This document shows, piece by piece, positions 5,866 to 22,967 of a stretch of 64,000 nucleotides of DNA. The DNA comes from Clostridia bacterium. GTDB taxonomy: Bacteria > Bacillota > Clostridia > Christensenellales > Aristaeellaceae. Position 1 is the first letter of the stretch; each line of letters starts with the position of its first letter. Position numbers and translations under genes: made by a program. Under the pieces are notes generated by a model. The model was not told the DNA's origin, ran no database searches, and saw only the letters and a program-made list of their open reading frames with translations. The DNA lies in contig JAFWZN010000079.1 in NCBI GenBank assembly GCA_017522345.1, positions 1 to 64,000 on the forward strand, written 5' to 3'.

Positions 5866-6999
5866 TTATTGGCTTAAAAACTCCACGAAATAGTCGTGGT
5901 TTTTTTTGTAATTCACATTTTCAAACATGCCGCCGTTATCGGTATAGGTGCCGCTTGCGGGCAGGCGGGTTTGATCGGGGACGCCGCCTGTAACGGCCTT
6001 TAAAGCGATCGAGGCGATTTCCAGAGCATTCATGTTGGTGTCGATTTCGTTAAACGCCGCTTTCGCCGCGTTTATGAGGCGCAGGGGATGCTGTTTGGCT
6101 TGGGAAAGAACGGCCGAGAGCACCTTGCGCTGACGGCTTGTTCTTTGGTAGTCGCTGCCTATGCTTCGGATTCGGGCATAGCCAAGCGTTTGCAGGCCGT
6201 CCAGATGCAGGCTTTCGCCGCCCCTTGCAAGGAGCTCGGACTGATAAAGCTGATAGCCCTCGTCATAGGGCATGACGCCCTTTTGGACGTCCATATAGAG
6301 AAGACCGCCCACGTTTTTGTTGATTTCCTCGGCCTCGGCGTCGGTGACGGATAAAGTAACGCCGCCGAGCTTATCAATGATTTTCGGGAAGCCGTCGTAG
6401 TCCACCATCGCGTAGCGGGTGATGTTCAGACCGAAATTCGAATTGATGGTTTTTAAAAGCAGCTCAATGCCGCCATAGGCATAGGCGGCGTTCAGGCGGT
6501 GGGTTCCGCTTTTTCCGGGAATGGTTACGCCGGTATCGCGCAGAAGCGAGGTCAATTTGATTTCGCCCTTTTTGACGGAGGCAATAATCATGGTGTCTGA
6601 ACGGCTGGTGCCCACGGAATCCATATCCACGCCGACAAGCAGCACATGAACATAGCCGCCCGGAAGCTCGTTATCGGCCAGATACATGCTCTTTGAGCGC
6701 GAACCGAAAACGCCCACGGGCAGAAGGTACAGAAGGAAGGAAAAAGCAAGAAGGCAAGCGAAAAGGAGGGCGAAGGCTTTCAAAAGAAAATGCTTCTTTT
6801 TTCTTTTCGGTGCAGCGTCGTTTATTTCTTCCGGCTCCTGATATCCCTTGGGCGCGTGAACGGGCGTTTCGAAGAAGAATTTGAAAAGAGAAGATTTTTC
6901 TTCCCTTCTGCTTTCCTCGATTCGCTTATCGCGCGCTGTATTCTCTTTCCTTTGGGCTTCTTCCGGTCTTTTTCGTTTGCCCGGCCGATCGTAATACAC
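5866..6999 (-). CDS. LytR-CpsA-Psr (LCP) family cell-wall glycopolymer ligase
   Basis: 377 residues: a highly charged cytoplasmic tail of about 70 residues, one membrane helix (about 71-93), then an extracellular LCP domain. Recognisable LCP blocks are VLLVGVDMD, SRSDTMIIASV, LTSLLRDTGV, HRLNAAYAYGG, DGFPKIIDKLGGV, and late GYARIRS...YQRTSRQRKVL. LCP enzymes transfer wall teichoic acid or capsule-type polymers from undecaprenyl diphosphate to peptidoglycan; the Arg/Asp residues that bind the lipid pyrophosphate are in the listed blocks. The long Lys/Arg/Glu-rich N-terminal tail is more extended than in Bacillus TagU. Confidence 0.9.
   Translation of the reverse strand: MYYDRPGKRKRPEEAQRKENTARDKRIEESRREEKSSLFKFFFETPVHAPKGYQEPEEINDAAPKRKKKHFLLKAFALLFACLLAFSFLLYLLPVGVFGSRSKSMYLADNELPGGYVHVLLVGVDMDSVGTSRSDTMIIASVKKGEIKLTSLLRDTGVTIPGKSGTHRLNAAYAYGGIELLLKTINSNFGLNITRYAMVDYDGFPKIIDKLGGVTLSVTDAEAEEINKNVGGLLYMDVQKGVMPYDEGYQLYQSELLARGGESLHLDGLQTLGYARIRSIGSDYQRTSRQRKVLSAVLSQAKQHPLRLINAAKAAFNEIDTNMNALEIASIALKAVTGGVPDQTRLPASGTYTDNGGMFENVNYKKNHDYFVEFLSQ

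Positions 7000-9002: not shown

Positions 9003-9006
<4 letters not shown>
8978..9006 (-). promoter_or_regulatory. sigma-A-type promoter of mrp
   Basis: Minus strand TTGAGA (9006-9001), 17-base spacer, TATAAT (8983-8978). The -35 box overlaps the stop codon of the upstream ABC ATPase gene, so mrp can be expressed independently of the long upstream unit. Confidence 0.65.
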
Positions 9007-9912
<906 letters not shown>

Positions 9913-9920
<8 letters not shown>

Positions 9921-10608
9921 CGTCATCACCTGCCACTTTTCCGTCTAAAATCTCGTAAACCCTGTCTCCGATTTCCATAAGACCGGTATCGTGCGTGGTC
10001 ATGACGATGGTCACGCCTTCTTTTTCGATGAGGTCCTTAAAAATCTTGACCACGCGAAGACCGGTGTTTGTGTCAAGCTCGCCCGTCGGCTCGTCCGCAA
10101 AGATGACCTTGGGCTTGTGCGCGATGGCGCGGGCGATGGCGACGCGCTGCTGTTCGCCGCCGGAAAGCTCCTGAGGCATGTGGTTTGCGCGTTTGTCAAG
10201 GCCGACCATTTTGAGGCATTCGAGCGCGCGCTTGGCGCGGTTGCCCTTGAAGCGGGCCAGGCGCAGGGCGAACTCAATGTTCTCCTGCGCGCTCATCATG
10301 GGAACGAGCGCGACCGACTGGAAGACGAAGCCGATGTCGCGTCTGCGCAGCCGGGCTCTGCGCATTTCATCCATTTTGCAGATGTTTCTGCCGTTAAAGA
10401 CGACTTTGCCGTTGGTGGGCTTGTCGAGCGCGCCCAGAATGTTGAGAAGCGTCGTTTTGCCCGAACCGCTTCGGCCCTTTAGAATGGTGAGCGCGCCGGC
10501 GGGGATATCCACGTCGATTCCCTTGAGCGCCCAGAACGTTTTGCTGCTGACCGGGAAAGCGCGCTTGATCCCGCGCGCCTGAATCATGTATCTTTGTTTA
10601 TCCGCCAT
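9913..10608 (-). CDS. ABC exporter ATPase, MacB/LolD type
   Basis: 231 residues, a stand-alone nucleotide-binding domain. Walker [10 protein letters not shown] (about residues 45-53), Q-loop VFQSV, signature LSGGEQQR, Walker [13 protein letters not shown] and switch THD are all intact. The short acidic end (GDDDE) is translationally coupled to the second ATPase. It lies 22 bases after the permease gene. Two non-identical ATPases with one double permease suggest an asymmetric dimer, which is inference. Confidence 0.92.
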
Positions 10609-10630
10609 AATTTTCTCCTTATCCCCTCCG

Positions 10631-13429
10631 TCAGTCTTCGCCCAATTTCAGCGCCTGGGCAATCTTCATTCTCTTGACGATAATTCCGAGAATCATCATG
10701 CTCAGAAGCAGCATGCTGCCGACAACGGAGAAAAGCTGGGTTGTGGCCGTGATGTTCAAGGCATTGGTGAGCGGAAGCGCGTTGTCGAAGGAGGAATAGG
10801 CAATCTGAATCATCGGCATGAAGAGGGAGGAGGCAATAAAGCCGATTGCGCCGCCCAGCACGATGGAAACGACGGAGATCAAAATCTGCTCGTTTATGAG
10901 CATTGTGAAAATTTCCCGCATGCTCATGCCCATCGCGCGGTAAATGCCGAACTGCAATGTTCTTTGGCGGATGGACAAGATCCAGTACATCAAAAAGCCG
11001 ATGATGCAAAGCGCGAGCACTACGATGAAGCCGACCGTCAGAACGCCGTTTAAGCTTTTGAGCATCGGGTCGTTCTTGCCCTCTACGATTTCCGCCTCCA
11101 TATCGATAAATTTCGGGAATCGGATTTCGTTTTCTTCGGCGTATTCGTAGATAAAGCCGGCGTCGTCCTTAGCGTCGATCCATACTTCATAGGGGCGAAG
11201 GCCGAACGCGTCCTGCACCTGAGAAAGATTTGCGACGATTAGATAATTGGGCGATTCGCGATAGATGCCGTCTGTGCCCTTTCGGTATACAAAGGGCTGA
11301 TAACCCGGCCAGTAGTCCACAAAGCCGTAGACAATGCCTCGGCTGGAATCCTTGGCGGTGTTTTGATAATTGATGACGTCGCCGACCTCGAAACCGTACT
11401 GGTCGCGGAAGTTGGAGGAAAGCAGCACGGCGCGGGCGTTATAGGCCATGGCGTTTAAGAAATGATAGGGATGCTCGGGATAAAGCGACAAATCAAAGTA
11501 GGCCGTTTTTCCGAAATCGTCCGTATCGATTGCAAAAAGCAGGATGTTGTTGACCGTTCCGCCCGAAACGGAGGCGTTGATTTTGTCGTTTCGGTATACG
11601 CGCGCGGCGCTTTGAACACCGTCCATTGTTTCATAAACACCGAAATCCGGTTCGTAGTAGATGAGATCCAACGAGGGATTCTGTTGCACCTGTTCGGAGT
11701 TGGACGACCATGATTCGCGAAGCACGATGTCCGCGCCGGAAAGATAGCGGATGTTTTTTTCGCCGTTTTCGTTGATGGTGCTGGCCGTCTGGGCGTTGAA
11801 CACGCCAAGGGCGATGGTCATGATTAAGAAAATCATGATGAAGTCCTGATTGCTGCGCTGCCTTAAAACCTTCAAAAACGACGCATACAATGCGGGCGAC
11901 CAGAAGCGCTTGAAAAGGTGGTAAACGACGGTGATCAGCGCGGGAATGACGCGGATGGCAAGAAGGCCCGCGCCGATTATGAAAAGAGACGAGCACAGCA
12001 GCAAAAGAGGATCGGGCATTTCGCCCTGAAGAATCCTCTGCGCAATCATTTCCTTCTGGTTGTTAAAGGAATAAAGGCCGTAGATCGATACGCCCAGCGC
12101 GATTACGTCCAAGAATGCTTTACGCCAAAGGGGCTTTTGCTTTCGGTTCTTTTTCTGCTTCTGCGTGACGATGGAGCCTCTGGTATATTTTCTGACCGGG
12201 AAAACCATGGCGATCACTGCGATCAGGCATCCAGCAAGGGCGTACAGAATGGGCGTCAGAGTGACTTCAATCGGCAGGGCGCGGCGGGAGACGAACTCTA
12301 AAAACGCATTGGCGGAGCCCAACACCTGCGTAATCAATACGCCCAGCGGAACGCCCGCTATGAAGGAGACGACGTTTAAAAGAATGCTCTGAGTAAAATA
12401 GACGCCCAAAATCTGGCGATTTTTAACGCCTCTGCTTTTAAGAACCGCGATTTCCGCCGCTTCCGTTTCCAGAATCTGGCGGGAAACCATGAAGATAAAG
12501 GCGATCAGCAGGATGTAAATCGGAGCCTGAAGCACCCAAAGGGTTACGCCGACCTTGCTTTTCATCTTGATGTGTTCGTTTAGAATATTCTCAAAATAGG
12601 TTGAGATGGTAATGAATTTGTCGTCCTTGTCGATTGCGGACATTTCTTTTATGACCGACTGCATGCTGCTTGCGTTTCTTGAAAGCATGCTGTGCGCATC
12701 CAGCACCTCGTACCACGCGGCGTTTAAAAGAAGCTTGGAGCCGTCGAAGACAAAAAGCTCGCGAAAAATGTCTTCGGGCATCATGTATTCGGATTTGTAG
12801 TGCTTGGGCTGTCTGACCCAATAGGTGTCGGACGTATCGAGAATATCGTATACGCCGACCACCTCGACCGTGACCGGAACGCCGTTTTTGTCCGTATATT
12901 TGGGGAAGGTGCGCCTTTCGCCAAGCAGCACGTTCAGGTCAATCAGCGCGGTTTGGCTTACGACAACCTCGATGACGCCGTCTTCGCGGATTTTATCCGA
13001 ATACATGCGTCCGGCGATGATTTTGGCGTGCTTGTCAAGATCGGTCAAGGAGCCGAGAGCGGCGTTTTTATAGTAGGTATCGTCTCGGACAATTTCGGGG
13101 TTGTTGGCGGCGACGGGGGTGTAGAGGTGACAAATCTGATAATGCGCCTTTACGCCGTATTTCTCGGGCAGGGAATGCGCCAGGGTCTCGTATTTTTGAA
13201 CGATGCCGTTTTTTTGCTGCGTGCCGCCGAAGGAAAAGATGATGTTTCCAGGATAGGAATTGCGGCTTAACAGATAAGCGTCCATATCGTCGTTCAGCAT
13301 GCGCTGCATGACCGCGTTGGAGTACAGGGGATTGGAGCAAGCGATGCTGACCAAGAGGATGTTTCCGATCAAGAGAGCCAAAAACATCCATTTTTTAGAG
13401 GCGATTTTTCGGAAAATGAATCGCAGCAT
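10631..13429 (-). CDS. ABC exporter permease with two FtsX domains
   Basis: 932 residues. One N-terminal helix is followed by a large extracytoplasmic domain (about 45-300) and a three-helix FtsX core (about 305-425). The layout then repeats: helices near 440-500, a second helix at about 530-550, an extracytoplasmic domain (about 560-790) and a final FtsX core (about 800-925). Each core has the characteristic segment between helices (EAAEIAVLKSRGVKNRQI and QFGIYRAMGMSMREIF). This is the MacB/BceB-like type VII ABC fold with both halves on one chain, which normally works as a mechanotransmitter rather than a channel. It stands between the membrane-fusion genes and the ATPase genes, all leftward with short spacing. 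Confidence 0.9.
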   Translation of the reverse strand: MLRFIFRKIASKKWMFLALLIGNILLVSIACSNPLYSNAVMQRMLNDDMDAYLLSRNSYPGNIIFSFGGTQQKNGIVQKYETLAHSLPEKYGVKAHYQICHLYTPVAANNPEIVRDDTYYKNAALGSLTDLDKHAKIIAGRMYSDKIREDGVIEVVVSQTALIDLNVLLGERRTFPKYTDKNGVPVTVEVVGVYDILDTSDTYWVRQPKHYKSEYMMPEDIFRELFVFDGSKLLLNAAWYEVLDAHSMLSRNASSMQSVIKEMSAIDKDDKFITISTYFENILNEHIKMKSKVGVTLWVLQAPIYILLIAFIFMVSRQILETEAAEIAVLKSRGVKNRQILGVYFTQSILLNVVSFIAGVPLGVLITQVLGSANAFLEFVSRRALPIEVTLTPILYALAGCLIAVIAMVFPVRKYTRGSIVTQKQKKNRKQKPLWRKAFLDVIALGVSIYGLYSFNNQKEMIAQRILQGEMPDPLLLLCSSLFIIGAGLLAIRVIPALITVVYHLFKRFWSPALYASFLKVLRQRSNQDFIMIFLIMTIALGVFNAQTASTINENGEKNIRYLSGADIVLRESWSSNSEQVQQNPSLDLIYYEPDFGVYETMDGVQSAARVYRNDKINASVSGGTVNNILLFAIDTDDFGKTAYFDLSLYPEHPYHFLNAMAYNARAVLLSSNFRDQYGFEVGDVINYQNTAKDSSRGIVYGFVDYWPGYQPFVYRKGTDGIYRESPNYLIVANLSQVQDAFGLRPYEVWIDAKDDAGFIYEYAEENEIRFPKFIDMEAEIVEGKNDPMLKSLNGVLTVGFIVVLALCIIGFLMYWILSIRQRTLQFGIYRAMGMSMREIFTMLINEQILISVVSIVLGGAIGFIASSLFMPMIQIAYSSFDNALPLTNALNITATTQLFSVVGSMLLLSMMILGIIVKRMKIAQALKLGED

Positions 13430-13445
13430 GGTTGCTTACTCCCTC

Positions 13446-14537
13446 CTATCTGTCGATGATCAGCTTTTCGCCGTCTTTAACGCCGTCAATCAGAATGACG
13501 CCTGTCTGCTGGCTTCCGAAGGCGAAGCCGACATATCTTTTGGAAACCATTCCGTCTTCGGAAAGCTTATATACATGATATCTGCCGTTATGCTGCGTGA
13601 TTGCTTCGCGGTCAACCACGAAAACGTCCTCGAGATACTGAGCGTAATAAGAGACCTGAGGACTGGTCTGCGTTTTAATGGGGCCGGAGAACGAATCGAC
13701 GCGGATATACGCGAATTTATCGCCGCTTCCGCCCGGCTGCGCCATGGGGCAGGCTACGACGCGTCCTTTGCCGAATACGCGGCTGTCCGCGCGGCCGACG
13801 GATACCATGACCTCCATGTTGTAGCGCATGCGCCCCTGATCGTCGTTTGCTCTGTACATGATGACGCTCGGATCATAGGCTTTCAGCAGCTGGGTTCCGG
13901 AAGAAACCCACTGAAGCTCGCGCAAATATGTGATTTCGCTGATAATGCCGTTGAAATCGGCATAAATGCTGGTGTTTTCGTAGGTTTCCAGAAGCTCCTC
14001 AAGCGACTTTTTCTGATCGGAAATCTGATTTTCCGTCTCAAAGATGTATTTTTCGCGTTCGATCAGGATTTTTTCTTTTTCAAGAGATCGGATTTCGCGT
14101 TCGAAGGCGCTTTGCGCGCGGGCGATCTGCTCATCGGCCGACAGAAGCCTTTCTTCAAACTGCGCAAGCGTTCTTAAATAAGTCTCTTCGCTTTTTTGAA
14201 TGTTCATCGTGCGGCGCGTGATTTCGACCTCGTCCCTTTGAATGGAGAAGGTGGCGATGAGATCGCCCACTTTGACTTCGTCGTTGCGCTTTACGTGGAA
14301 GGCGACAAACTGCGCGGCGGCGCCCTCATATTTCACCGTATATTCGTTGGGATAATAGGTCTGGACGGCGCCGTTTTGAAGCTTTTGAAAGGTGTCCTTT
14401 TTGACCTCCACGGTTTTATAGTTGGCGGCAGTTTCCTGCGTGAGGCTGGTTACGTCGATCAGATACTCGCTTGCGGAGGCGGAAAAGGTGAAAAGACACG
14501 CGATCAGGAGCGAGAAAATTCTAATTATCCGTGACAT
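13446..14537 (-). CDS. membrane-fusion (HlyD/RND-MFP-like) exporter subunit 3
   Basis: 363 residues from the ATG at 14537, which has AAGGAG eight to nine bases upstream; it overlaps the end of the previous gene by 17 bases. A cleavable signal peptide (about 1-22, ...FTFSASAS) is present but no lipobox. Then come a lipoyl-type half-motif (EVKVGDLIATF), a coiled-coil region (about 125-195, rich in Glu/Gln/Arg) and a beta-barrel part ending in ILIDGVKDGEKLIID. Third adaptor in a row, probably an extracytoplasmic partner of the permease. Confidence 0.82.
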   Translation of the reverse strand: MSRIIRIFSLLIACLFTFSASASEYLIDVTSLTQETAANYKTVEVKKDTFQKLQNGAVQTYYPNEYTVKYEGAAAQFVAFHVKRNDEVKVGDLIATFSIQRDEVEITRRTMNIQKSEETYLRTLAQFEERLLSADEQIARAQSAFEREIRSLEKEKILIEREKYIFETENQISDQKKSLEELLETYENTSIYADFNGIISEITYLRELQWVSSGTQLLKAYDPSVIMYRANDDQGRMRYNMEVMVSVGRADSRVFGKGRVVACPMAQPGGSGDKFAYIRVDSFSGPIKTQTSPQVSYYAQYLEDVFVVDREAITQHNGRYHVYKLSEDGMVSKRYVGFAFGSQQTGVILIDGVKDGEKLIIDR

Positions 14538-15645
14538 AAATCTTTTCTCCTTCCTCAAGTCCTTCCAGAACTACGCTGTATACGGAGTCCGGGTAATTTC
14601 TGATTTTTACTAAACGCTTGACGCTTTCGCCGTTTTCGCCCACGACGTAAACGTATTTTCCGTCGGCTCCGCTCAATACCGCGTTCTGGGGGATCAGAAG
14701 CTGATCGGGCAGATAATTATGAACAAGCATCAAACCAACGTATTGCCCGGGCTCAACCTCGTTTTCCCAGCCTTCGGGGCCGGTGAAGTTCATTTCGGCG
14801 TACACAACGTCGCCTACCAGAACTTTTGCGGCGTATTCGTCCTTATCAAGCTCAATGCGCTCTATGGTGTATTTCTTATTGCCGATCAGCGCATAGCTTC
14901 CGCCGTTTGCGCTTCTGAATGTAATTTCGGACACGGAGGGAGACATGATTTTCATGCGGCTGTGATCGGCAAGGAGGATAACGGTCTGATAGGCCTTTAC
15001 GGCTGAACCCTTTGTAACCTCGATGCCGCGCGAAACGTATCCGTCGAAGGGCGCGATGATGGCGTCATTTGCCAAAATGTCGCTGAGACGATCAAGCGCT
15101 TCGCGGCTTTTGGCAAGGTTCATGCTTTGAATCTCTATGGCCTGCTCAAGATCCGTTTTCTTTTGAAGGATGTCAAGCTCCTTCAGGCGGATTTCATCGC
15201 CCGAGGCATTCTGCGCAATCAGCGCTTGCTTTTCAATCTCCAGAATCTGAATGTCGATTTCGGCAAGGCGGTTTGAATAGGCGTTGGACGCCTCCGTCCG
15301 CGCAATCGATTCGGCCAAGGACTCGGCTTGTTCGCGTTCGGCATCCAGATTCAGCGTCACAAGACGGTCGCCCGCATGAACGAAATCGCCCGGCAGCACG
15401 TTTACTTCGTCTACTATGCCGTTTACGTTGAAGCTGAGCTCCTCCGTATAGCAAACGGTGAATGCTTCATACAATTTGGGCGTGGCATGGTCGCCTCTTA
15501 TGACCGAAGCGATGTCTCTTGCGACGCCTGCTGCGGGAAGAAGCTCAGGCGCGGCAAATTCGGCCTTCTCCTGAGCGCAGCCGGACAGGAGAAGAGAAAT
15601 GAAGGCAAGAAGGAGAAATGCGAGGCGTTTTCTTTCGTTTCTCAT
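14521..15645 (-). CDS. membrane-fusion (HlyD-like) lipoprotein, exporter subunit 2
   Basis: 374 residues. Lipobox LLLSGC puts the lipid-anchored cysteine at residue 23. An N-terminal biotinyl-lipoyl half (EELSFNVNGIVDEVNVLPGD) is followed by a coiled coil (about 100-185), the second lipoyl half (IIAPFDGYVSRGIEVTKGSAV), a beta-barrel and a membrane-proximal end (VLEGLEEGEKIYV). It overlaps the preceding gene by four bases (ATGA), implying translational coupling. In Gram-positives such adaptors work with MacB-like permeases at the outer face of the membrane. Confidence 0.87.
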   Translation of the reverse strand: MRNERKRLAFLLLAFISLLLSGCAQEKAEFAAPELLPAAGVARDIASVIRGDHATPKLYEAFTVCYTEELSFNVNGIVDEVNVLPGDFVHAGDRLVTLNLDAEREQAESLAESIARTEASNAYSNRLAEIDIQILEIEKQALIAQNASGDEIRLKELDILQKKTDLEQAIEIQSMNLAKSREALDRLSDILANDAIIAPFDGYVSRGIEVTKGSAVKAYQTVILLADHSRMKIMSPSVSEITFRSANGGSYALIGNKKYTIERIELDKDEYAAKVLVGDVVYAEMNFTGPEGWENEVEPGQYVGLMLVHNYLPDQLLIPQNAVLSGADGKYVYVVGENGESVKRLVKIRNYPDSVYSVVLEGLEEGEKIYVTDN

Positions 15646-16724
15646 CCGACGATTACCTCCTCGCCCTCTTTAAGGCCTTCAACGACCTCGTAATATTTTC
15701 CAACCTTGAGGCCGACTTTTACTTTCTTATACGTCTTCATGCCGTCTTCGCCCAGCACATAGGCGATGGATTCGCCGTTTGCCGAGGAAATTGCGTCCTC
15801 ATGCACAATCAAAACGTCCTTTCTTGAATCCAGAACGAGTTCGATTGAGCCCTTGTCGTTGTCCTCAAGCTCAAGCGCGGGCACGACGAGGATGAGATAG
15901 GCGTTTGCGCGTTTACCGATTTCGCGCACGCCGGGATCAATGCCGTATTCGGCGGGATCAATGACGATTGCCTCATAATCGGTCTTGTTGCAGGTGATGA
16001 TATGGCTGTCGCCCGGTTTGAAAAGATCCCATCTGTCGGAGGATGCGCTGAACAGGGACATTGATGCGTCAACGACAGTCGCAGACCGCTCCTTTTCGTC
16101 GGAAACCGAGGATTCGGTGTATTTTCTGACATAGGTCACCGTTCCGTCGATCGGAGAAATCAGCTGTCTTTTGCGCTTTAACTCGTACGCTTCCTGAAGC
16201 TCCATTTCGTATAGGTAAATCCGATCCCGATAATCCTTTTCGGTCAGCGCGTAGGATTCGGTGATATCGTCAACCGCCTCCTGCAATTTAGCGGGATCGG
16301 CGGCGTATAGGATCTTTTGCCGCTCGATGGCGAGGTTTTTGTCCATGAACAGATGCTCAATGGATAGCTTTAATGAATCAATATTGAAATTGAGATCGCG
16401 GATTACATCGTCCACGCCGTCCATGCGAAGCTGACCCAGCACCTGCCCCTTTTTCACGACGTCGCCGGCCTGAACATAGATTTCATCTATGTATTCGCCG
16501 CTTACGCCGAAGGAGAGCTGGATTTTCTGAATCGGAATATAGGTGCAGCTGACGCGCTGGGTGAGGGAGAGGTCTCCGCGCGTGACATAGGAGAGATTGA
16601 ATTGTTCGGTTTCCGTTTCGACGAGCAGGGGCGCGTTTCTTCTGATTTCCTCTTTGGGGAGAAGCGAACAGGCGGTCAGAAGGACGGAAAGCGCGAAACA
16701 CAAAAGCCTTTTCAGATGCTTCAT
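15642..16724 (-). CDS. membrane-fusion (HlyD-like) lipoprotein, exporter subunit 1
   Basis: 360 residues. Lipobox LLTAC gives anchored Cys19. Lipoyl half IDEIYVQAGDVVKKGQVLGQL, a coiled coil (about 110-185), then ISPIDGTVTYVRKYTESSV and an extracytoplasmic barrel, ending KVGKYYEVVEGLKEGEEVIVG. The ATG abuts the stop codon of rsmI with no space, so exporter and rRNA methyltransferase genes are read as one unit. The three adaptors share architecture but little obvious sequence, so they are old paralogues rather than recent duplicates. Confidence 0.87.
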   Translation of the reverse strand: MKHLKRLLCFALSVLLTACSLLPKEEIRRNAPLLVETETEQFNLSYVTRGDLSLTQRVSCTYIPIQKIQLSFGVSGEYIDEIYVQAGDVVKKGQVLGQLRMDGVDDVIRDLNFNIDSLKLSIEHLFMDKNLAIERQKILYAADPAKLQEAVDDITESYALTEKDYRDRIYLYEMELQEAYELKRKRQLISPIDGTVTYVRKYTESSVSDEKERSATVVDASMSLFSASSDRWDLFKPGDSHIITCNKTDYEAIVIDPAEYGIDPGVREIGKRANAYLILVVPALELEDNDKGSIELVLDSRKDVLIVHEDAISSANGESIAYVLGEDGMKTYKKVKVGLKVGKYYEVVEGLKEGEEVIVG

Positions 16725-17588
16725 TTATTCTTCCTCCCCTTCGAACAGGTTTTCGATGGCAAGCTTTGCTTTGTAGATTTCGTTTCGGCTTTTGCCCGTT
16801 TCGCTTGCGCGCGCCAAAGCCTCGCGCATGGAAAGGCCTTCAAGCAGCGCGTCAAGAAGGATGTGCTCGGCCTTAAGCTCGGCTCTTTCCTTAGGCTTTT
16901 TTTGAACGAGGCTCGTATCCAGAACGATGCAGTATTCACCCTTTTCGACATTGGGATTTGACCGCATTTCGTTCAGAACTTCGCCCGCGCCGCCCCGCAG
17001 GATTTTTTCGAACTTTTTGGTCAGATCGCAGCACACGCACACGCTTGCGCCGGGCAGCGTTTTTTCGATCATTTCAACAAGCTGAACTACGCGGTGAGGA
17101 GATTCGTAAAGGACGGAAACGGGAATGCCCGTCTCCAAAATAGACAATAGCTTTTCTTTAAGCGGCTTATTTTCCCGCGGAAGGAAGCCGTAGAACGCAA
17201 ATTCCCTCGAATCAAAGCCCGAAACGGACAGCGCCGTGACGACGGCCGACGGGCCGGAAACGGGAATGATTTCAATGCCCGCCTCCCATGCGGCGTTTAC
17301 CAGCGTTTCGCCGGGGTCGGAGATGCCGGGCGTGCCCGCATCGCAGGTCAAGCAGACGGTCAGATCTTCCGCCAGCATTCTTTCGATCACGCCGTCGGAT
17401 TTCTGATCCTCGTTGTGCCTGTGCAAAGACATCATCGGCTTTTTTATGCCGATAAACTGCGTAAGCTTCATCGTTACGCGCGTATCCTCCGCGCAGATTA
17501 AGTCGCACGCCGAAAGCGCCTCGGACATCCGGGGCGTTAAGTCGTTTAGGTTTCCAATCGGCGTCGCCACTACAAAAAGCTTTGCCAT
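16725..17588 (-). CDS. rsmI: 16S rRNA (cytidine-1402-2'-O)-methyltransferase RsmI
   Basis: 287 residues; the ATG at 17588 has AAAGGA eight bases upstream, so an in-frame start five codons earlier is rejected. Tetrapyrrole-methylase fold with VATPIGNLNDLTPR, AEDTRVT, TCDAGTPGISDPG (SAM loop), PVSGPSAVVTALSVSG and FYGFLPRE, all diagnostic of RsmI. It adds the 2'-O-methyl group to C1402 in helix 44 of 16S rRNA. RsmH, which methylates N4 of the same base, is three genes upstream. One base separates this start from the stop of the ArmA-like gene. Confidence 0.95.
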   Translation of the reverse strand: MAKLFVVATPIGNLNDLTPRMSEALSACDLICAEDTRVTMKLTQFIGIKKPMMSLHRHNEDQKSDGVIERMLAEDLTVCLTCDAGTPGISDPGETLVNAAWEAGIEIIPVSGPSAVVTALSVSGFDSREFAFYGFLPRENKPLKEKLLSILETGIPVSVLYESPHRVVQLVEMIEKTLPGASVCVCCDLTKKFEKILRGGAGEVLNEMRSNPNVEKGEYCIVLDTSLVQKKPKERAELKAEHILLDALLEGLSMREALARASETGKSRNEIYKAKLAIENLFEGEEE

Positions 17589-17589
17589 G

Positions 17590-18369
17590 TTATTTCCTTT
17601 CAAGCGTATATGCTAATTCGTTCCCGATCACAAAGCGGTCGATCACCTTGTGCGTTTCCGGAATTTTTTCCTCAAACCACTCGGTATAGTGCCTTTCCAT
17701 GCCTACCTTTTTGCCGCCCAGCGTTTGTGTGGGGAAGGTTACGAGCATGTAGCGGCTTTTGATATTTTCTAAAAGCGCCTTTGCCGCGCCGGTTTTCTGC
17801 GTTTCAAGCACGGGAAGGAGCTTCATCATAAGCGTGATGTCCGCTTCCTCCTCGGGCGGGTTCAAAATCAGATCCTGCGCCTTCGCCCTCGTATTCCACT
17901 TAAAAAACTGTGCGCATTCGTTTATAAGCTGTGCGCAGCCGGCGTGAATATCGAGGCCGAGAACGTTTGTATAGCCCATTTTGCCTAAAAAAATGGGGTT
18001 GATGCCGCAGGCAAGATCAAGAATCGTTTTAAGCTCCTCGCAGGCGGAAAACGCGCGGGCATACAATTTTTCTGCAATCTGAACGCGCTCTCTGGTGGAG
18101 GAATGATACAGCATCGCGCGAACAAACGCATCCTCATCGCCCGCCATCCATTCGCTGAGCGCCTTTTTGGCGTTTTTGAGTTCATCGGGCGATATGAACG
18201 CGCCGGTGATGGCGTGCAGATGGGCTCTTGCGGCCTTGTCCGCGTCCTTCAGCTTTCCGTGCCGCTTTGTTTGCTCAAAAAAGGCGTTTTTTACCGTGTC
18301 CGGGCAGATGTCCGCGTATTTTTTGGATGTCAGCAAATCGCTTAATGCTTTTTCCGTCCTATTGTCCAT
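17590..18369 (-). CDS. ArmA/Rmt (FmrO)-family 16S rRNA methyltransferase
   Basis: 259 residues, typical length for this family. Seen: HSSTRER (89-95), the SAM motif LDLACGINP (117-125), Asp140 at the end of strand 2, KLLPVLETQ (183-191), FPTQTLGGKKVGM (212-224) and YTEWFE. These blocks occur in the same order and spacing in ArmA and RmtB, enzymes that make m7G1405 in 16S rRNA and block kanamycin/gentamicin-class aminoglycosides. It overlaps the TGT-like gene by 11 bases and precedes rsmI by one base. Codon use matches its neighbours and there is no mobile-element context, so it looks resident. Methylation of G1405 is inferred from family; resistance is not shown. Confidence 0.82.
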   Translation of the reverse strand: MDNRTEKALSDLLTSKKYADICPDTVKNAFFEQTKRHGKLKDADKAARAHLHAITGAFISPDELKNAKKALSEWMAGDEDAFVRAMLYHSSTRERVQIAEKLYARAFSACEELKTILDLACGINPIFLGKMGYTNVLGLDIHAGCAQLINECAQFFKWNTRAKAQDLILNPPEEEADITLMMKLLPVLETQKTGAAKALLENIKSRYMLVTFPTQTLGGKKVGMERHYTEWFEEKIPETHKVIDRFVIGNELAYTLERK

Positions 18370-19450
18370 TTCGAATCTGCTCCATAAGCCGCCCGTAAAA
18401 GCGGAGATTGTGCGCGGTTGCCAGACGCAGCGCCTGACTGTCGCCGACCTTGAAAAGGTGAGTCAGATACGCCTTGGAATAATTTCTGCAAAGCGCGCAG
18501 TCGCACGTTTTGTCCACGGGCTCAGCGCTTCTGATGTGCTCGTCGTCCATGGCGTAGTGAAAATGATAGAATTTGCCGTCCGGAACAAAAACGCCATCCG
18601 GCGTATCCATGCCGTCGTTAAACACATACAGCCGCTGGTGGCGCGCTTCTCTTGTGGGAATCACGCAGTCAAACAGCGAATAGCCCATTTTGACGAGGTT
18701 TACGATTTCCTCGGGTCTTCCTACGCCCATGGCGTATTTGACCTTATTGTCCGGCATGGCGTCCGCCGCCATTTGAAGAACGTCGTAAAGGATTTTGCCG
18801 TTTTCATCGGTCGGCCAGCCGCCAAAACCGTAGCCGTCAAAGCCGATTTCTTCAAGGCGCTTTCCGCATTCCATGCGAAGGGCTGCATTTCTTCCGCCCT
18901 GAACGATGCCGAACAGAAGGGGCTTGGGCCCTTTGACCGTTTTCACCAGCCGGTCGTATTCCTCGCGGCAGCGTTTGCCCCATTTGATCGTGAGGTTTAC
19001 GCTTTTCTCCTGCGCTTCGATCGGATCGTCCGGGTGCGTGCACAGATCCAGCGCCATCATGATGTCGCTTCCGTACATAAACTGCGCCTGAATGCACTTT
19101 TCCGGCGTGAAATGCATTTTCTCCTGTCCGCGATCGGGACGGAACAGGATTTCCTTTTCACGGATTTCTCCGTATTCCGCATTTTCTCGGATCATGGAAT
19201 ACAGCTGAAATCCGCCGGAATCGGTTAAAATCGCGCCCTTGAAGCCGGTAAAAGCGCGCAACCCGCCGAGCGACTTGATCAGCCGCGCGCCGGGTTTGGA
19301 ATACAGGTGATAGCTGTTCATTTCAAGGCCGTGAAGGCCCGCGTCATATACGTCCTCAAAGCCCGCTGCGCGCACGGCTCCGTACGTCGCATCCGGGAAA
19401 AACGCGGGCAGGCGAACTTCGCCCGAGGGCAGATTCAGTCGGTCGATCAT
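18359..19450 (-). CDS. divergent tRNA-guanine transglycosylase (TGT) family protein
   Basis: 363 residues from the ATG at 19450 (AAAGGA upstream). TGT-fold hallmarks: TDSGGFQ with Asp77 (general acid/base position), MALDLCT with Asp137, GIVQGG (181-186), LFDCVIPTR with nucleophile Asp261, and the zinc site Cys316-x-Cys318-x2-Cys321-x25-His347. The substrate pocket differs: the usual GGLAVGE is GGWPTDE (210-216), GNTYHL is MNSYHL, and the arginine loop ends REARHQ instead of RNARNG. It may therefore be a paralogue with another base or RNA target. It starts five bases after rsmH ends and overlaps the ArmA-like gene. Confidence 0.85.
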   Translation of the reverse strand: MIDRLNLPSGEVRLPAFFPDATYGAVRAAGFEDVYDAGLHGLEMNSYHLYSKPGARLIKSLGGLRAFTGFKGAILTDSGGFQLYSMIRENAEYGEIREKEILFRPDRGQEKMHFTPEKCIQAQFMYGSDIMMALDLCTHPDDPIEAQEKSVNLTIKWGKRCREEYDRLVKTVKGPKPLLFGIVQGGRNAALRMECGKRLEEIGFDGYGFGGWPTDENGKILYDVLQMAADAMPDNKVKYAMGVGRPEEIVNLVKMGYSLFDCVIPTREARHQRLYVFNDGMDTPDGVFVPDGKFYHFHYAMDDEHIRSAEPVDKTCDCALCRNYSKAYLTHLFKVGDSQALRLATAHNLRFYGRLMEQIRNGQ

Positions 19451-19455
19451 TGAGA

Positions 19456-20406
19456 TTAAATCCTTTCGGCAATACGAAGCGTCGCGCTGCGCGCGCGCGG
19501 GTTTTCTTTGAGCTCCTCTTCGCCCGAGACAATGGGCTTTCGGGTGATGATTTTTATCATGGGCTTTTTTCCGCACACGCACACGGGAAAGTGCTTCGGG
19601 CACGTGCAGGGATTCTGAAGCGTCTGATAGGCGTTTTTAACGAGTCTGTCTTCCAGAGAATGGAAGGCGATAATGCAGATGCGTCCTTCGACGTTCAGCA
19701 TCTTAACAAAATCGTTGATGGCGGGCGTGAGCGGCTCAAGCTCGTCGTTGACCGCGATCCGAAGCGCCTGAAACGTGCGCCTTGCGGGATGGGAATTGTC
19801 CTTTGCGCGGAATTTTTTCGGAATCGCCGCGTCGATGATGGAAACAAGCTGGCTTGTGGTTTCGATGGGAGAAAGCTTTCTTCTGTCCACGATCACGCGC
19901 GCAATCTGAACCGCCCAATTTTCCTCGCCGTAATCGCGCAGAATCCGGGCGATATCCTTCTCGTCCCACTCGTTTACGATGTTACGGGCGTTAAACGGCT
20001 GGTATACGTCCATGCGCATGTCCAGAGGCGCGTCGTCGTGATACGAAAATCCTCTTTCGCGCGCGTCCAGCTGATAGCTTGAAACGCCCAAATCCAGTAG
20101 CACGCCGTCCACCTTGGAAACGCCGATTTCATTAAGCAGCATTTTCGCATCATGGAAATTCCCGTGAATGAGCGTCACATTCTTAACTTTATCGGGACAC
20201 ACCCGTGAAAGCTTTTCGGAGGCGGCGCGAAGCGCATCGGTATCGCGGTCGATGCCGATGAGCCTGCCGGTCGTCAGGCGTTTTAAAATTTCGCTCGAAT
20301 GTCCGCCGCCGCCGAGCGTTCCGTCTACGTAAATGCCGTCGGGTTTAATGCTTAAGCCTTCCAGACATTCGTTCAGCAATACCGATTTATGGATAAATTC
20401 CGTCAT
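19456..20406 (-). CDS. rsmH: 16S rRNA (cytosine-1402-N4)-methyltransferase RsmH
   Basis: 316 residues from the ATG at 20406 (AAAGGG about ten bases upstream); eight extra in-frame codons upstream are discounted. [52 protein letters not shown] and [13 protein letters not shown] are the RsmH/MraW signatures. It makes the N4-methyl of m4Cm1402. In most Firmicutes it opens the dcw division cluster beside ftsL and pbpB; here none of those genes follow, and it heads a run of RNA-modification genes. Confidence 0.95.
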
Positions 20407-20450
20407 TTGATCCGTCCCTTTTTGAAGCAATAATGAATGACGCTTTTCTG

Positions 20451-20657: not shown

Positions 20658-21938
20658 TTACAGGCATCCCTTGTCTTCCGGCAGAAGCAGATTCCGAACA
20701 TCGCCTGCAAGGTAAATGCTGCCGGCGGCAACCACCACGCCGTCTTTTCCGGCAAGGCCGCGGGCGTGACGCAAAGCGTTTTCCACGCCTTCTACGGCGA
20801 TCGCATTTTTATAGTAATTCTGAAGCTCTTTTGCATGAACCGCGCGGGGCCAGTTGACGTTGGTTGTCACGACATAATCGGAAAATTCCTTGAAGATGGA
20901 CGCGCAGGCCTCCACCTGCTTATCCTGCATCATGCCGGTTAACAGCACGACGGGCTTACCTTGCACATACGCGTCCAGATACCGCTTGAGCGCATGCGCG
21001 CCCTGCGGATTGTGCGCGCCGTCGATCAGCACGTTTTCAATCCATTCAAGGCGGCCCGGCCAGACGGCTTTTTCGACGCCCTTGACCGCTTTTTCCATAT
21101 TGACGCCGAGGCGGTCGAGAACGTTTAATGCGATCGCGGCGTTTTTCTGCTGATGCTCGCCCGGGAGATTGCCCTTTACGCGCGTAAATCCGTTTGCCGG
21201 AAGCTCGACTGCGATTTCGAAGGAGGCTTTGTCCTGACTGAGCGTATGGATGATGCCCGTTTCAAAAAGCGGCGCATGCACGCTTCTCGCCTTTTCCCGA
21301 AAAACGCGCATCACGTCTTCATCCTGCGAAAGCACGACGGCGGGAACGCCCTGCTTCATGATGCCGGCCTTTTCGCCCGCGATTTCTGAGAGCGTGTTTC
21401 CAAGCTTCGACATGTGATCCATGCCGATTGCACAGATGGCGCAGACAGCCGGGGTTAAAACATTCGTAGAGTCGAGCCGTCCGCCCATGCCGACCTCCAT
21501 GACGGAAAAGTCGGCCTGTTTGTCTGCATAGTACAGGCATGCGCAGGCGGTCAGAAGTTCGAAGGTGGTGGCGTAAATTCCCCTTGCAAACAGGCTCTCG
21601 GCGGCCTCGCGCACGCGGGAGGCAACGTCGATCAAATCTGCATCTGAAATGGGCGCGCCGCCAAAGCGGATGCGCTCGTTAAAGGCGCAAAGATAGGGAG
21701 AAGTGAAAAGGCCGGTTTTATAGCCGCATTCGCGAAGCGCCCGGTCGATCATGGCGCAGGTCGAGCCTTTTCCGTTTGTGCCCGCCACGTGGATGATGCG
21801 CCCCATTCGCTTATCGGGGCGTCCGAGGGCTTCAAGCAGCGCCTTTGTGTTTTCAAGTCCGTTTTTTTCGCCCTTCCAGCGCGCGCCGTTGATCCAGTCG
21901 GCGGCGGCCTGAGCGGTTTCAAAACGAGTCATCTTCAT
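20658..21938 (-). CDS. folC: folylpolyglutamate synthase / dihydrofolate synthase
   Basis: 426 residues of the Mur-ligase fold. P-loop HVAGTNGKGSTCAMID (about 50-65), omega-loop FTSPYLCAFNERI, VGMGGRLDSTN, GDHxxK-type region IGMDHMSKLGNTLSEIAGEKAGI with the carbamylated-lysine position, and LIDGAHNPQGAHAL in the C-terminal domain. It adds glutamate to dihydropteroate and folates. It follows trpS by 15 bases. Its own end is trailed by the repeat-bearing gap before rsmH, so co-transcription onward is uncertain. Confidence 0.95.
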   Translation of the reverse strand: MKMTRFETAQAAADWINGARWKGEKNGLENTKALLEALGRPDKRMGRIIHVAGTNGKGSTCAMIDRALRECGYKTGLFTSPYLCAFNERIRFGGAPISDADLIDVASRVREAAESLFARGIYATTFELLTACACLYYADKQADFSVMEVGMGGRLDSTNVLTPAVCAICAIGMDHMSKLGNTLSEIAGEKAGIMKQGVPAVVLSQDEDVMRVFREKARSVHAPLFETGIIHTLSQDKASFEIAVELPANGFTRVKGNLPGEHQQKNAAIALNVLDRLGVNMEKAVKGVEKAVWPGRLEWIENVLIDGAHNPQGAHALKRYLDAYVQGKPVVLLTGMMQDKQVEACASIFKEFSDYVVTTNVNWPRAVHAKELQNYYKNAIAVEGVENALRHARGLAGKDGVVVAAGSIYLAGDVRNLLLPEDKGCL

Positions 21939-21953
21939 AAAACCTTCTTTGTA

Positions 21954-22967
21954 TTACAGCTTCATGGGCGCAAGGCCGACCTTTTTGCGAACCTTGAGCA
22001 TGGTTCTGTAGGCGATGGACTGAGCGCGTTCGCGGCCGTCTACCATGACGGATTCAAGATACGCCTTGTCCGCGGAAATGCGGTCGTATTCCTTCTGAAT
22101 GGGTTCGAGCACGCTGATGACCGCGTCGGCCACCGCATCCTTGAAAACGCCGTAGCCGCGTCCGTCGTATTCATTCGTGATTTCGTCCATGGTCTTTCCG
22201 GTGAGTGCGCTCATGATGGACATGAGGTTCGAGATACCCGCGTGGTTTTCGGGGTCGAAACGAACCATGTTGTCGCTGTCGGTGACGGCGCGGCGCATTT
22301 TCTTGCGGATGATTTCGGGCTTGTCGAGGATGGCGATATAGGTGTCCTCGGGATCGGACTTGCTCATCTTTCTCGTGGGCTCCTGAAGGCTCATAACGCG
22401 TGCGCCGACCTTGGGAATATAAGGCTCGGGCACGACGAACACATCGCCGTAAATGGCGTTAAAGCGCTGAGCGAGGTCGCGCGCAAGCTCCAGATGCTGC
22501 TTCTGATCCGCGCCGATGGGAACCAAGTCGGTCATATAAAGAAGGATGTCGGCCGCCATGAGCGTGGGGTAGGCAAACAGGCCGCAGTTGATGTTGTCGG
22601 CGTGCTTTGCGCTCTTGTCCTTAAACTGGGTCATGCGGGACAATTCGCCCATGTAGGTGAAGCAGTCTAAAATCCATCCGAGCTCGGCATGCTGGGGCGC
22701 CTGACTCTGGAAATAGATGATGTTCTTTTCGGGATCCAAGCCGCTGGCGAGGAAAATGGCCATCGTGCGCAGGCAAGCCTTTCGAAGCTCGGCAGGGTTC
22801 TGGCGAACGGTGATGGCGTGAAGGTCCACGATGGAATAAAGGCAGTCGTATTCGTTTTCAAGCAGCTTAAAATTGCGAAGCGCGCCGATATAATTTCCGA
22901 GCGTCAGATTACCGGTCGGCTGAATGCCGGAGAATATGCGTTTTTTGGGCGTCTGATTGTTTTCCAT
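21954..22967 (-). CDS. trpS: tryptophanyl-tRNA synthetase
   Basis: 337 residues, class I. The HIGH-type motif is PTGNLTLGN (about 17-25) and the KMSKS loop is intact (RKMSKSDPED). Tryptophan-pocket segments IVDLHAIT, FQSQAPQHAELGW, MADILLY and PIGADQKQH(LE) are all present. Unlike leuS and cysS in this window, no T-box leader precedes it: only about 60 bases separate a GTGTATAATA box from the GGGGGA ribosome binding site. Confidence 0.97.
   Translation of the reverse strand: MENNQTPKKRIFSGIQPTGNLTLGNYIGALRNFKLLENEYDCLYSIVDLHAITVRQNPAELRKACLRTMAIFLASGLDPEKNIIYFQSQAPQHAELGWILDCFTYMGELSRMTQFKDKSAKHADNINCGLFAYPTLMAADILLYMTDLVPIGADQKQHLELARDLAQRFNAIYGDVFVVPEPYIPKVGARVMSLQEPTRKMSKSDPEDTYIAILDKPEIIRKKMRRAVTDSDNMVRFDPENHAGISNLMSIMSALTGKTMDEITNEYDGRGYGVFKDAVADAVISVLEPIQKEYDRISADKAYLESVMVDGRERAQSIAYRTMLKVRKKVGLAPMKL

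Follow-up and report, generated by a model that had tools for sequence, protein, structure and literature searches.

A chromosomal Rmt-family methyltransferase gene in a clostridial RNA-modification operon, its Tgt-like partner and its kinship to plasmid-borne aminoglycoside resistance genes

Rmt enzymes encoded on plasmids defeat almost every aminoglycoside in clinical use, and they are usually taken to originate from actinomycete drug producers. A gene of this family in the window (the whole stretch of 64,000 nucleotides analysed here, from contig JAFWZN010000079.1 of the Clostridia bacterium assembly GCA_017522345.1) raises the question of what such an enzyme does in a clostridial host and whether lineages of this kind supplied the plasmid genes. 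The gene lies on a 128-kb contig of a 2.87-Mb metagenome-assembled genome (MAG). We consider it likely that it encodes a native, vertically kept methyltransferase of the m7G1405 (Arm/Rmt) type from an RNA-modification operon, and that the clostridial lineage, or close unsampled relatives, is the source of acquired RmtB, RmtD, RmtG and probably RmtF.

The rmt open reading frame (ORF) is intact, running over 259 codons from ATG to TAA on the minus strand at exactly 17590-18369, and its product belongs to the ArmA/RmtB/FmrO family, as the original prediction had it. The FmrO profile PF07091, a check named beforehand, matched strongly (E=2.4e-35, 122.6 bits against a cut-off of 27), aligning residues 15-254 of 259 with profile positions 2-254 of 255, and the protein scored 274.9 bits with the NCBIfam equivalog model of the Rmt family (NF000466, cut-off 250). 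The top subfamily model was RmtF at 287.6 bits, under its own cut-off of 500, and the window protein is thus an Rmt but not RmtF itself. Sequence matches spanned nearly the whole length of the solved RmtF, RmtB, Sgm and RmtC proteins; with phmmer, they were strongest for RmtF (PDB 6pi9; E=6e-84, residues 1-258), with RmtB at E=3e-56 and Sgm at E=5e-35. Identity to plasmid-borne RmtF is 52%, taken over the whole protein, compared with 30-42% to the plasmid-borne RmtB, RmtD and RmtE, 35% to RmtG and ~31% to Sgm and the other actinomycete self-resistance methyltransferases, which share its family and fold. All 14 residues that are invariant in 20 sequences (ArmA, RmtB-G and chromosomal relatives) are present (L51, H52, H89, S91, T92, R95, D118, C121, P125, D140, P213, G219, G223 and E251), in line with the predicted presence of the family blocks.

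An AlphaFold2 model of the protein (mean pLDDT 95.6) showed the same fold as RmtF, aligning over residues 1-259 (Z 35.0, rmsd 1.9 over 259 residues), followed by RmtB (Z 32.7), Sgm (Z 27.6) and RmtC (Z 24.3), while the next methyltransferases reached only ~Z 15. Because the alignment with RmtF runs end to end, the model indicates an N-terminal helical RNA-binding domain beside the Rossmann methyltransferase domain; this domain, a second point singled out in advance, is kept whole in the predicted structure (RmtF Z 35, RmtB Z 32.7).

On the minus strand, the genes follow in the order leuS, uppP, an ORF without Pfam match, trpS, folC, rsmH, tgt2, rmt, rsmI and transporter genes (Table 1). The overlap of tgt2 with rmt, together with an rsmI start right after the rmt stop, suggests that tgt2, rmt and rsmI are probably co-translated. 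Directly downstream of rsmI (window positions 9003-16724) lies a block with two efflux-adaptor-like ORFs, genes for two ABC ATPases and an FtsX permease, and one ORF that matches no Pfam family; the two efflux-adaptor-like ORFs are kept in both same-genus genomes.

Table 1 Features of the rmt locus in the window
Feature	Position	Strand	Description	Evidence
rsmI	16725..17588	-	16S rRNA C1402 2'-O-methyltransferase; ATG directly after the rmt stop	TIGR00096, 219.7 bits (cut-off 167.9)
rmt	17590..18369	-	Rmt/FmrO-family 16S rRNA m7G1405 methyltransferase homologue, 259 aa	PF07091, NF000466, PDB matches, AlphaFold2 model
tgt2	18359..19450	-	Tgt paralogue, 363 aa; 3' end overlaps the rmt start by 11 bp	PF01702, separate clade (support 100), co-occurrence
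Tgt2 diagnostic loop, codons Gly210-Gly211-Trp212-Pro213	18812..18823	-	Corresponds to Gly229-Gly230-Leu231-Ala232 in Z. mobilis Tgt	
rsmH	19456..20430	-	16S rRNA C1402 N4-methyltransferase; longest ORF, TTG start, putative	TIGR00006, 383 bits (cut-off 154)
folC	20658..21938	-	Upstream operon neighbour; adjoins rsmH in several relatives too	TIGR01499, synteny
trpS	21954..22967	-	Tryptophanyl/tyrosyl-type tRNA synthetase	PF00579

Among the ORFs scanned at 9-28 kb of the window are genes for translation, folate, the cell wall and ABC transport, but neither a transposase nor an integrase. Within this same scanned range, the IS, transposon or plasmid context that is typical of acquired 16S-RMTase genes was not found around rmt, which sits instead in a conserved operon; the chromosomal, non-mobile setting proposed originally was therefore confirmed. 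Codon use agrees with that of the neighbours, again as proposed (GC3 of 0.63 for rmt versus 0.60-0.68). The flanks had been described as housekeeping, and this holds for trpS, folC, rsmH and rsmI and, further off, leuS and uppP, but not for the gene directly upstream, which is a Tgt paralogue. Compared with a sister genome, dN/dS is 0.10 for Rmt, 0.048 for Tgt2 and 0.08-0.10 for rsmH and rsmI, and rmt is thus under purifying selection like rsmH and rsmI.

The operon is old. A profile search gave a set of relatives whose loci were read (~226 further relatives were left out of this set), with hosts that include ~55 rumen and gut MAGs of Clostridia, many of which bear names from the neighbourhood of Christensenella, followed by Chloroflexota, Omnitrophota and others. 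Every relative from the window's own family whose locus was read showed the order rsmH-tgt2-rmt-rsmI, even where Rmt identity falls to 37%, and so did nearly all of at least ~55 clostridial loci; in the gut MAGs of Clostridia, rsmH, the tgt-like gene, rmt and rsmI keep this order at 37-81% Rmt identity. Tgt2 also adjoins Rmt in most Chloroflexota loci, and adjacency was seen in Omnitrophota. The two genes are likewise neighbours in the cultured Thermosporothrix hazakensis ATCC BAA-1881 (L097). In three Chloroflexota genomes (G758, G790 and G694), a single contig holds two Rmt-family genes, in tandem or a short distance apart. Outside these groups, a Candidatus Liptonbacteria genome of the CPR (0.9 Mb; L102/G323, positions 5995-6792) has an Rmt with a good PF07091 match (200.7 bits), and no Tgt was detected in it.

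The conserved gene order at 37-81% identity, the purifying selection and the absence of mobile genes nearby (ORFs scanned at 9-28 kb) indicate that rmt is a native chromosomal gene, vertically maintained in an old conserved operon. Its uneven occurrence in the family, where 69 of 300 genomes have it, could instead point to a resistance gene that was recently acquired and inserted in the chromosome. We regard this as extremely improbable, since rmt holds the same operon position across many genera, has a GC3 like its neighbours and a dN/dS like rsmI, has no mobile genes nearby and is present or absent jointly with Tgt2. Self-protection of an aminoglycoside producer, the role that family members such as Sgm have in Micromonospora, is very improbable here, as no aminoglycoside biosynthesis genes were found among the ORFs scanned at 9-28 kb of the window.

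We then compared the chromosomal genes with acquired ones. In a tree of 90 Rmt rows, RmtB1/B2, RmtD1, RmtF1 and RmtG fell in one clade with the clostridial chromosomal genes (SH-aLRT 100), which places the window protein inside the family. RmtD1 and RmtG lie deep inside the clostridial clade, where the lineages closest to RmtG and RmtD are from rabbit and horse gut, RmtF lies beside the window gene with a support of only 86, the placement of RmtE, RmtC and ArmA is unsure, and Sgm is near Chloroflexota genes. These trees, like those of Tgt below, are 'quick' searches on rapidly evolving proteins, and RmtA, RmtH and ~226 further relatives were left out.

The plasmid loci themselves carry pieces of the operon. 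RmtG islands in Klebsiella and Enterobacter (for example, pKP13f) repeat the window's arrangement of a trpS end, rsmH, tgt2, rmtG and a truncated rsmI, with folC absent: the trpS-end ORF is a C-terminal piece matching chromosomal loci upstream of folC/rsmH, rsmH (68.7% identity) and tgt2 (70.7%) are complete, and the first 79 aa of rsmI (70.9%) remain. Unlike the window locus, these islands have been mobilised between ISVsa3/IS26. The RmtD1 island retains an rsmH end and a complete tgt2, the RmtB2 island a complete tgt2 (63.5%), the RmtE2 island a partial tgt2 (54%) and the RmtE4 island the last 29 codons of tgt2. No tgt2 or rsmI remains were found at the RmtF, RmtB1, RmtC and ArmA plasmid loci; rmtF differs from the window gene in lying on an IncF plasmid between an integron, aac(6')-Ib and IS elements, with no tgt2 or rsmI adjoining. 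In the Tgt tree, the Tgt2 of the RmtG plasmid is sister to two loci from rabbit-gut MAGs (L082/L085, support 95), and that of RmtB2 is basal to the family. Plasmid Tgt2 and the matching Rmt thus take the same tree positions, as expected if the genes moved together. The best DNA identity of the plasmid islands to any sampled chromosome is ~73-76%, and the actual donor species are thus unsampled.

Together, the trees and plasmid fragments show, at the level of sequence, that the clostridial lineage or close unsampled relatives are the source of acquired RmtB, RmtD and RmtG. RmtF probably comes from the same source, with a tree support of 86 and no operon fragments. For RmtE, whose tgt2 is only 54% identical, the sequences indicate a more distant carrier of the same module. 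The original proposal of a chromosomal lineage feeding this resistance family is thus strongly supported by trees and operon fragments alike, and the evidence points to commensal gut Clostridia for RmtB, RmtD, RmtF and RmtG and to a related carrier of the same module for RmtE.

The operon on rmtG plasmids has already been reported: the review PMC9311965, citing Passarelli-Araujo 2019, places rmtG together with rsmH, tgt and 'rsmL' in one operon, and a gene for a tRNA ribosyltransferase upstream of rmtG is mentioned in the Kp13 genome paper. In the literature covered, which excludes most subscription journals, we found no report of a clostridial or chromosomal source or of a Tgt2 subfamily.

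Other features of the acquired loci were recorded. The start of the same lipoprotein-like gene lies directly downstream of rmtE in RmtE2 (L033, 5558-5875) and RmtE4 (L027, 1810-2172) and may mark the RmtE donor. This ORF and the one downstream of RmtD1 were considered as rsmI remains and rejected, being unrecognisable as rsmI fragments and having no match in the chromosomal loci. Two partial rmtF-like fragments flank an intact rmtF1 on the plasmid NZ_CP130916.1 (L025, 5823-5978 and 6789-6887), as if pieces had been duplicated. On the chromosome of Providencia rettgeri PROV023 (L068, 6001-6732), an RmtB gene is integrated, with 901 bp that match the plasmid RmtB1 region exactly.

The operon tgt is not the sole, housekeeping Tgt of its host, a reading that was rejected on finding a canonical Tgt elsewhere in the same genome and the two copies in separate tree clades. 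Genomes with rmt have two Tgts, the canonical one elsewhere and the operon copy, compared with only the canonical kind in relatives without rmt, and the two-Tgt pattern recurs in Chloroflexota and Omnitrophota. A tree of 74 Tgts has a branch, with support of 100, that separates the 43 Rmt-linked copies (from Clostridia, Chloroflexota, Omnitrophota and plasmids) from the canonical copies that these genomes also carry. The operon copy of the window scores just below the cut-off of TIGR00430, the canonical Tgt equivalog (306.5 versus 306.75 bits). By the tree and the two-Tgt pattern, the operon gene is a distinct Tgt paralogue, here called Tgt2.

Tgt2 shares the fold, catalytic aspartates and zinc site of canonical bacterial Tgt (Z. 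mobilis Tgt aligns at Z 44.2, with an rmsd of 1.8 over 337 residues), with D102, D156 and D280 conserved in 82 of 82 sequences and Q203 and the zinc ligands in 81 of 82. It differs in the base-reading loop, which reads GGWP(L/M/T/I) in 82/82 Tgt2 rather than the canonical GGL(S/A)VGE: positions 231-232 are Trp-Pro throughout, compared with Leu-Ser/Ala in 46 of 48 canonical Tgts, and Gly234 and Glu235 are not conserved. Extra segments relative to canonical Tgt occur near residues 88-91, 167-172 and 281-297. In canonical Tgt, the 231/232 peptide acts as a switch, turning its NH towards guanine and its C=O towards preQ1, helped by Glu235 (PMC3660597). With proline in this place, the peptide NH is lost in Tgt2, and the pocket seems, from its residues, suited to a base with a substituent or a charge at position 7. 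One Tgt2 match (G345:C9:4517-5590) contains an in-frame TGA.

Tgt2 is an obligate partner of Rmt across two phyla. In a survey of 300 genomes from the family to which the window belongs, both genes occurred in 67 and neither in 231; Rmt stood alone in 2, whose assemblies are incomplete, and Tgt2 alone in none. In 63 of the 67 pairs, Tgt2 lies immediately upstream of Rmt, on the same contig and strand. Of 241 Chloroflexota genomes, 42 carry the pair and a further 3 carry Rmt with fragments of Tgt2 next to it; Rmt was found alone in 4, and Tgt2 alone in none. Gene order varies among these pairs, five of which are unlinked. A survey of 398 Bacillota genomes added 6 with Tgt2, all with Rmt within the 1.5-kb flank. 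Across the Bacillota and Chloroflexota surveys, no Tgt2 genome out of 115 lacked Rmt, unlinked pairs included. Genera g5 and g152 each contain some species with both genes and others with neither. Protein distances of Rmt and Tgt2 are correlated, with r=0.90 across 75 loci and r=0.86 inside the family (0 of 999 permutations). As the surveyed genomes are MAGs and mutually related, p-values (Fisher) overstate the independent evidence.

Rmt does occur without Tgt2, on plasmids and at L102, but Tgt2 never without Rmt, which suggests that Tgt2 needs the product of Rmt. The operon and the Tgt2 partner, which the original prediction had missed, turn a lone resistance gene into a two-enzyme RNA-modifying module; Rmt is plausibly part of an ancient module of this kind with the decoding site as its target.

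The rsmH-tgt2-rmt-rsmI operon would then be devoted to modifying RNA at the decoding site. Two of its products, RsmH and RsmI, which unlike Rmt are widespread housekeeping enzymes, modify C1402 (m4Cm1402), and Rmt, encoded beside them, would most likely methylate N7 of G1405, three nucleotides away. From what is known of the family, host ribosomes would carry m7G1405 and hence resist 4,6-disubstituted 2-deoxystreptamine aminoglycosides. ArmA blocks RsmI at C1402, according to Lioy et al. as cited in PMC12406665, and given this interference, co-expression of rmt and rsmI may serve to order the modifications. Tgt2, in turn, would act together with or after Rmt. A search for 16S rRNA (RF00177) had no hit in 18 genomes (the host MAG and 17 relatives), and a candidate host 16S h44, a 14-mer match on contig C2, was rejected as a chance match and not rRNA.

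The G1405 function of Rmt is itself predicted from its family, and the gene sits among housekeeping RNA-modification genes, so it might be a housekeeping methyltransferase with another target nucleotide that confers no resistance, G1405 specificity having evolved in the plasmid copies only. This is improbable: given 52% full-length identity to RmtF and at least four acquired families nested among the chromosomal genes, the specificity would have to have arisen several times. It is also found in Sgm, which comes from an aminoglycoside producer, and the family-invariant residues are all present.

For Tgt2, the main rival to a role tied to the Rmt product is a plain tRNA role, in which Tgt2 would be a second tRNA-guanine transglycosylase acting on tRNA G34, perhaps with another base, and the link to Rmt would reflect decoding in general or shared regulation, the two enzymes having no substrate in common; we rate this a little short of an even chance. 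In favour of it, Tgt2 resembles tRNA Tgt in fold (Z 44 to the Z. mobilis enzyme) and has the same catalytic residues, and the known PF01702 enzymes, DpdA excepted, to our knowledge act on tRNA. However, a canonical Tgt is already present in the hosts, 14 of the 15 genomes checked also have QueA, and a tRNA role leaves unexplained both the absence of Tgt2 without Rmt and the fixed Trp-Pro loop. These two features, with the missing NH and the lack of a conserved Glu235, agree with a sequential base exchange, in which Rmt would make m7G1405 and Tgt2 would remove 7-methylguanine by transglycosylation, either restoring guanine as an eraser of a resistance methylation or inserting a 7-deazaguanine base. 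We know of no enzymatic base exchange in ribosomal RNA, of which this would be the first case, and we hold the sequential scheme to be rather unlikely in this specific form. Also in its favour, free 7-methylguanine is a competitive inhibitor of Tgt (PMC9299380).

That a 'resistance' enzyme lies in nature nearly always beside a Tgt paralogue makes its original, non-clinical function directly testable, and the pair has a cultured host in Thermosporothrix hazakensis.
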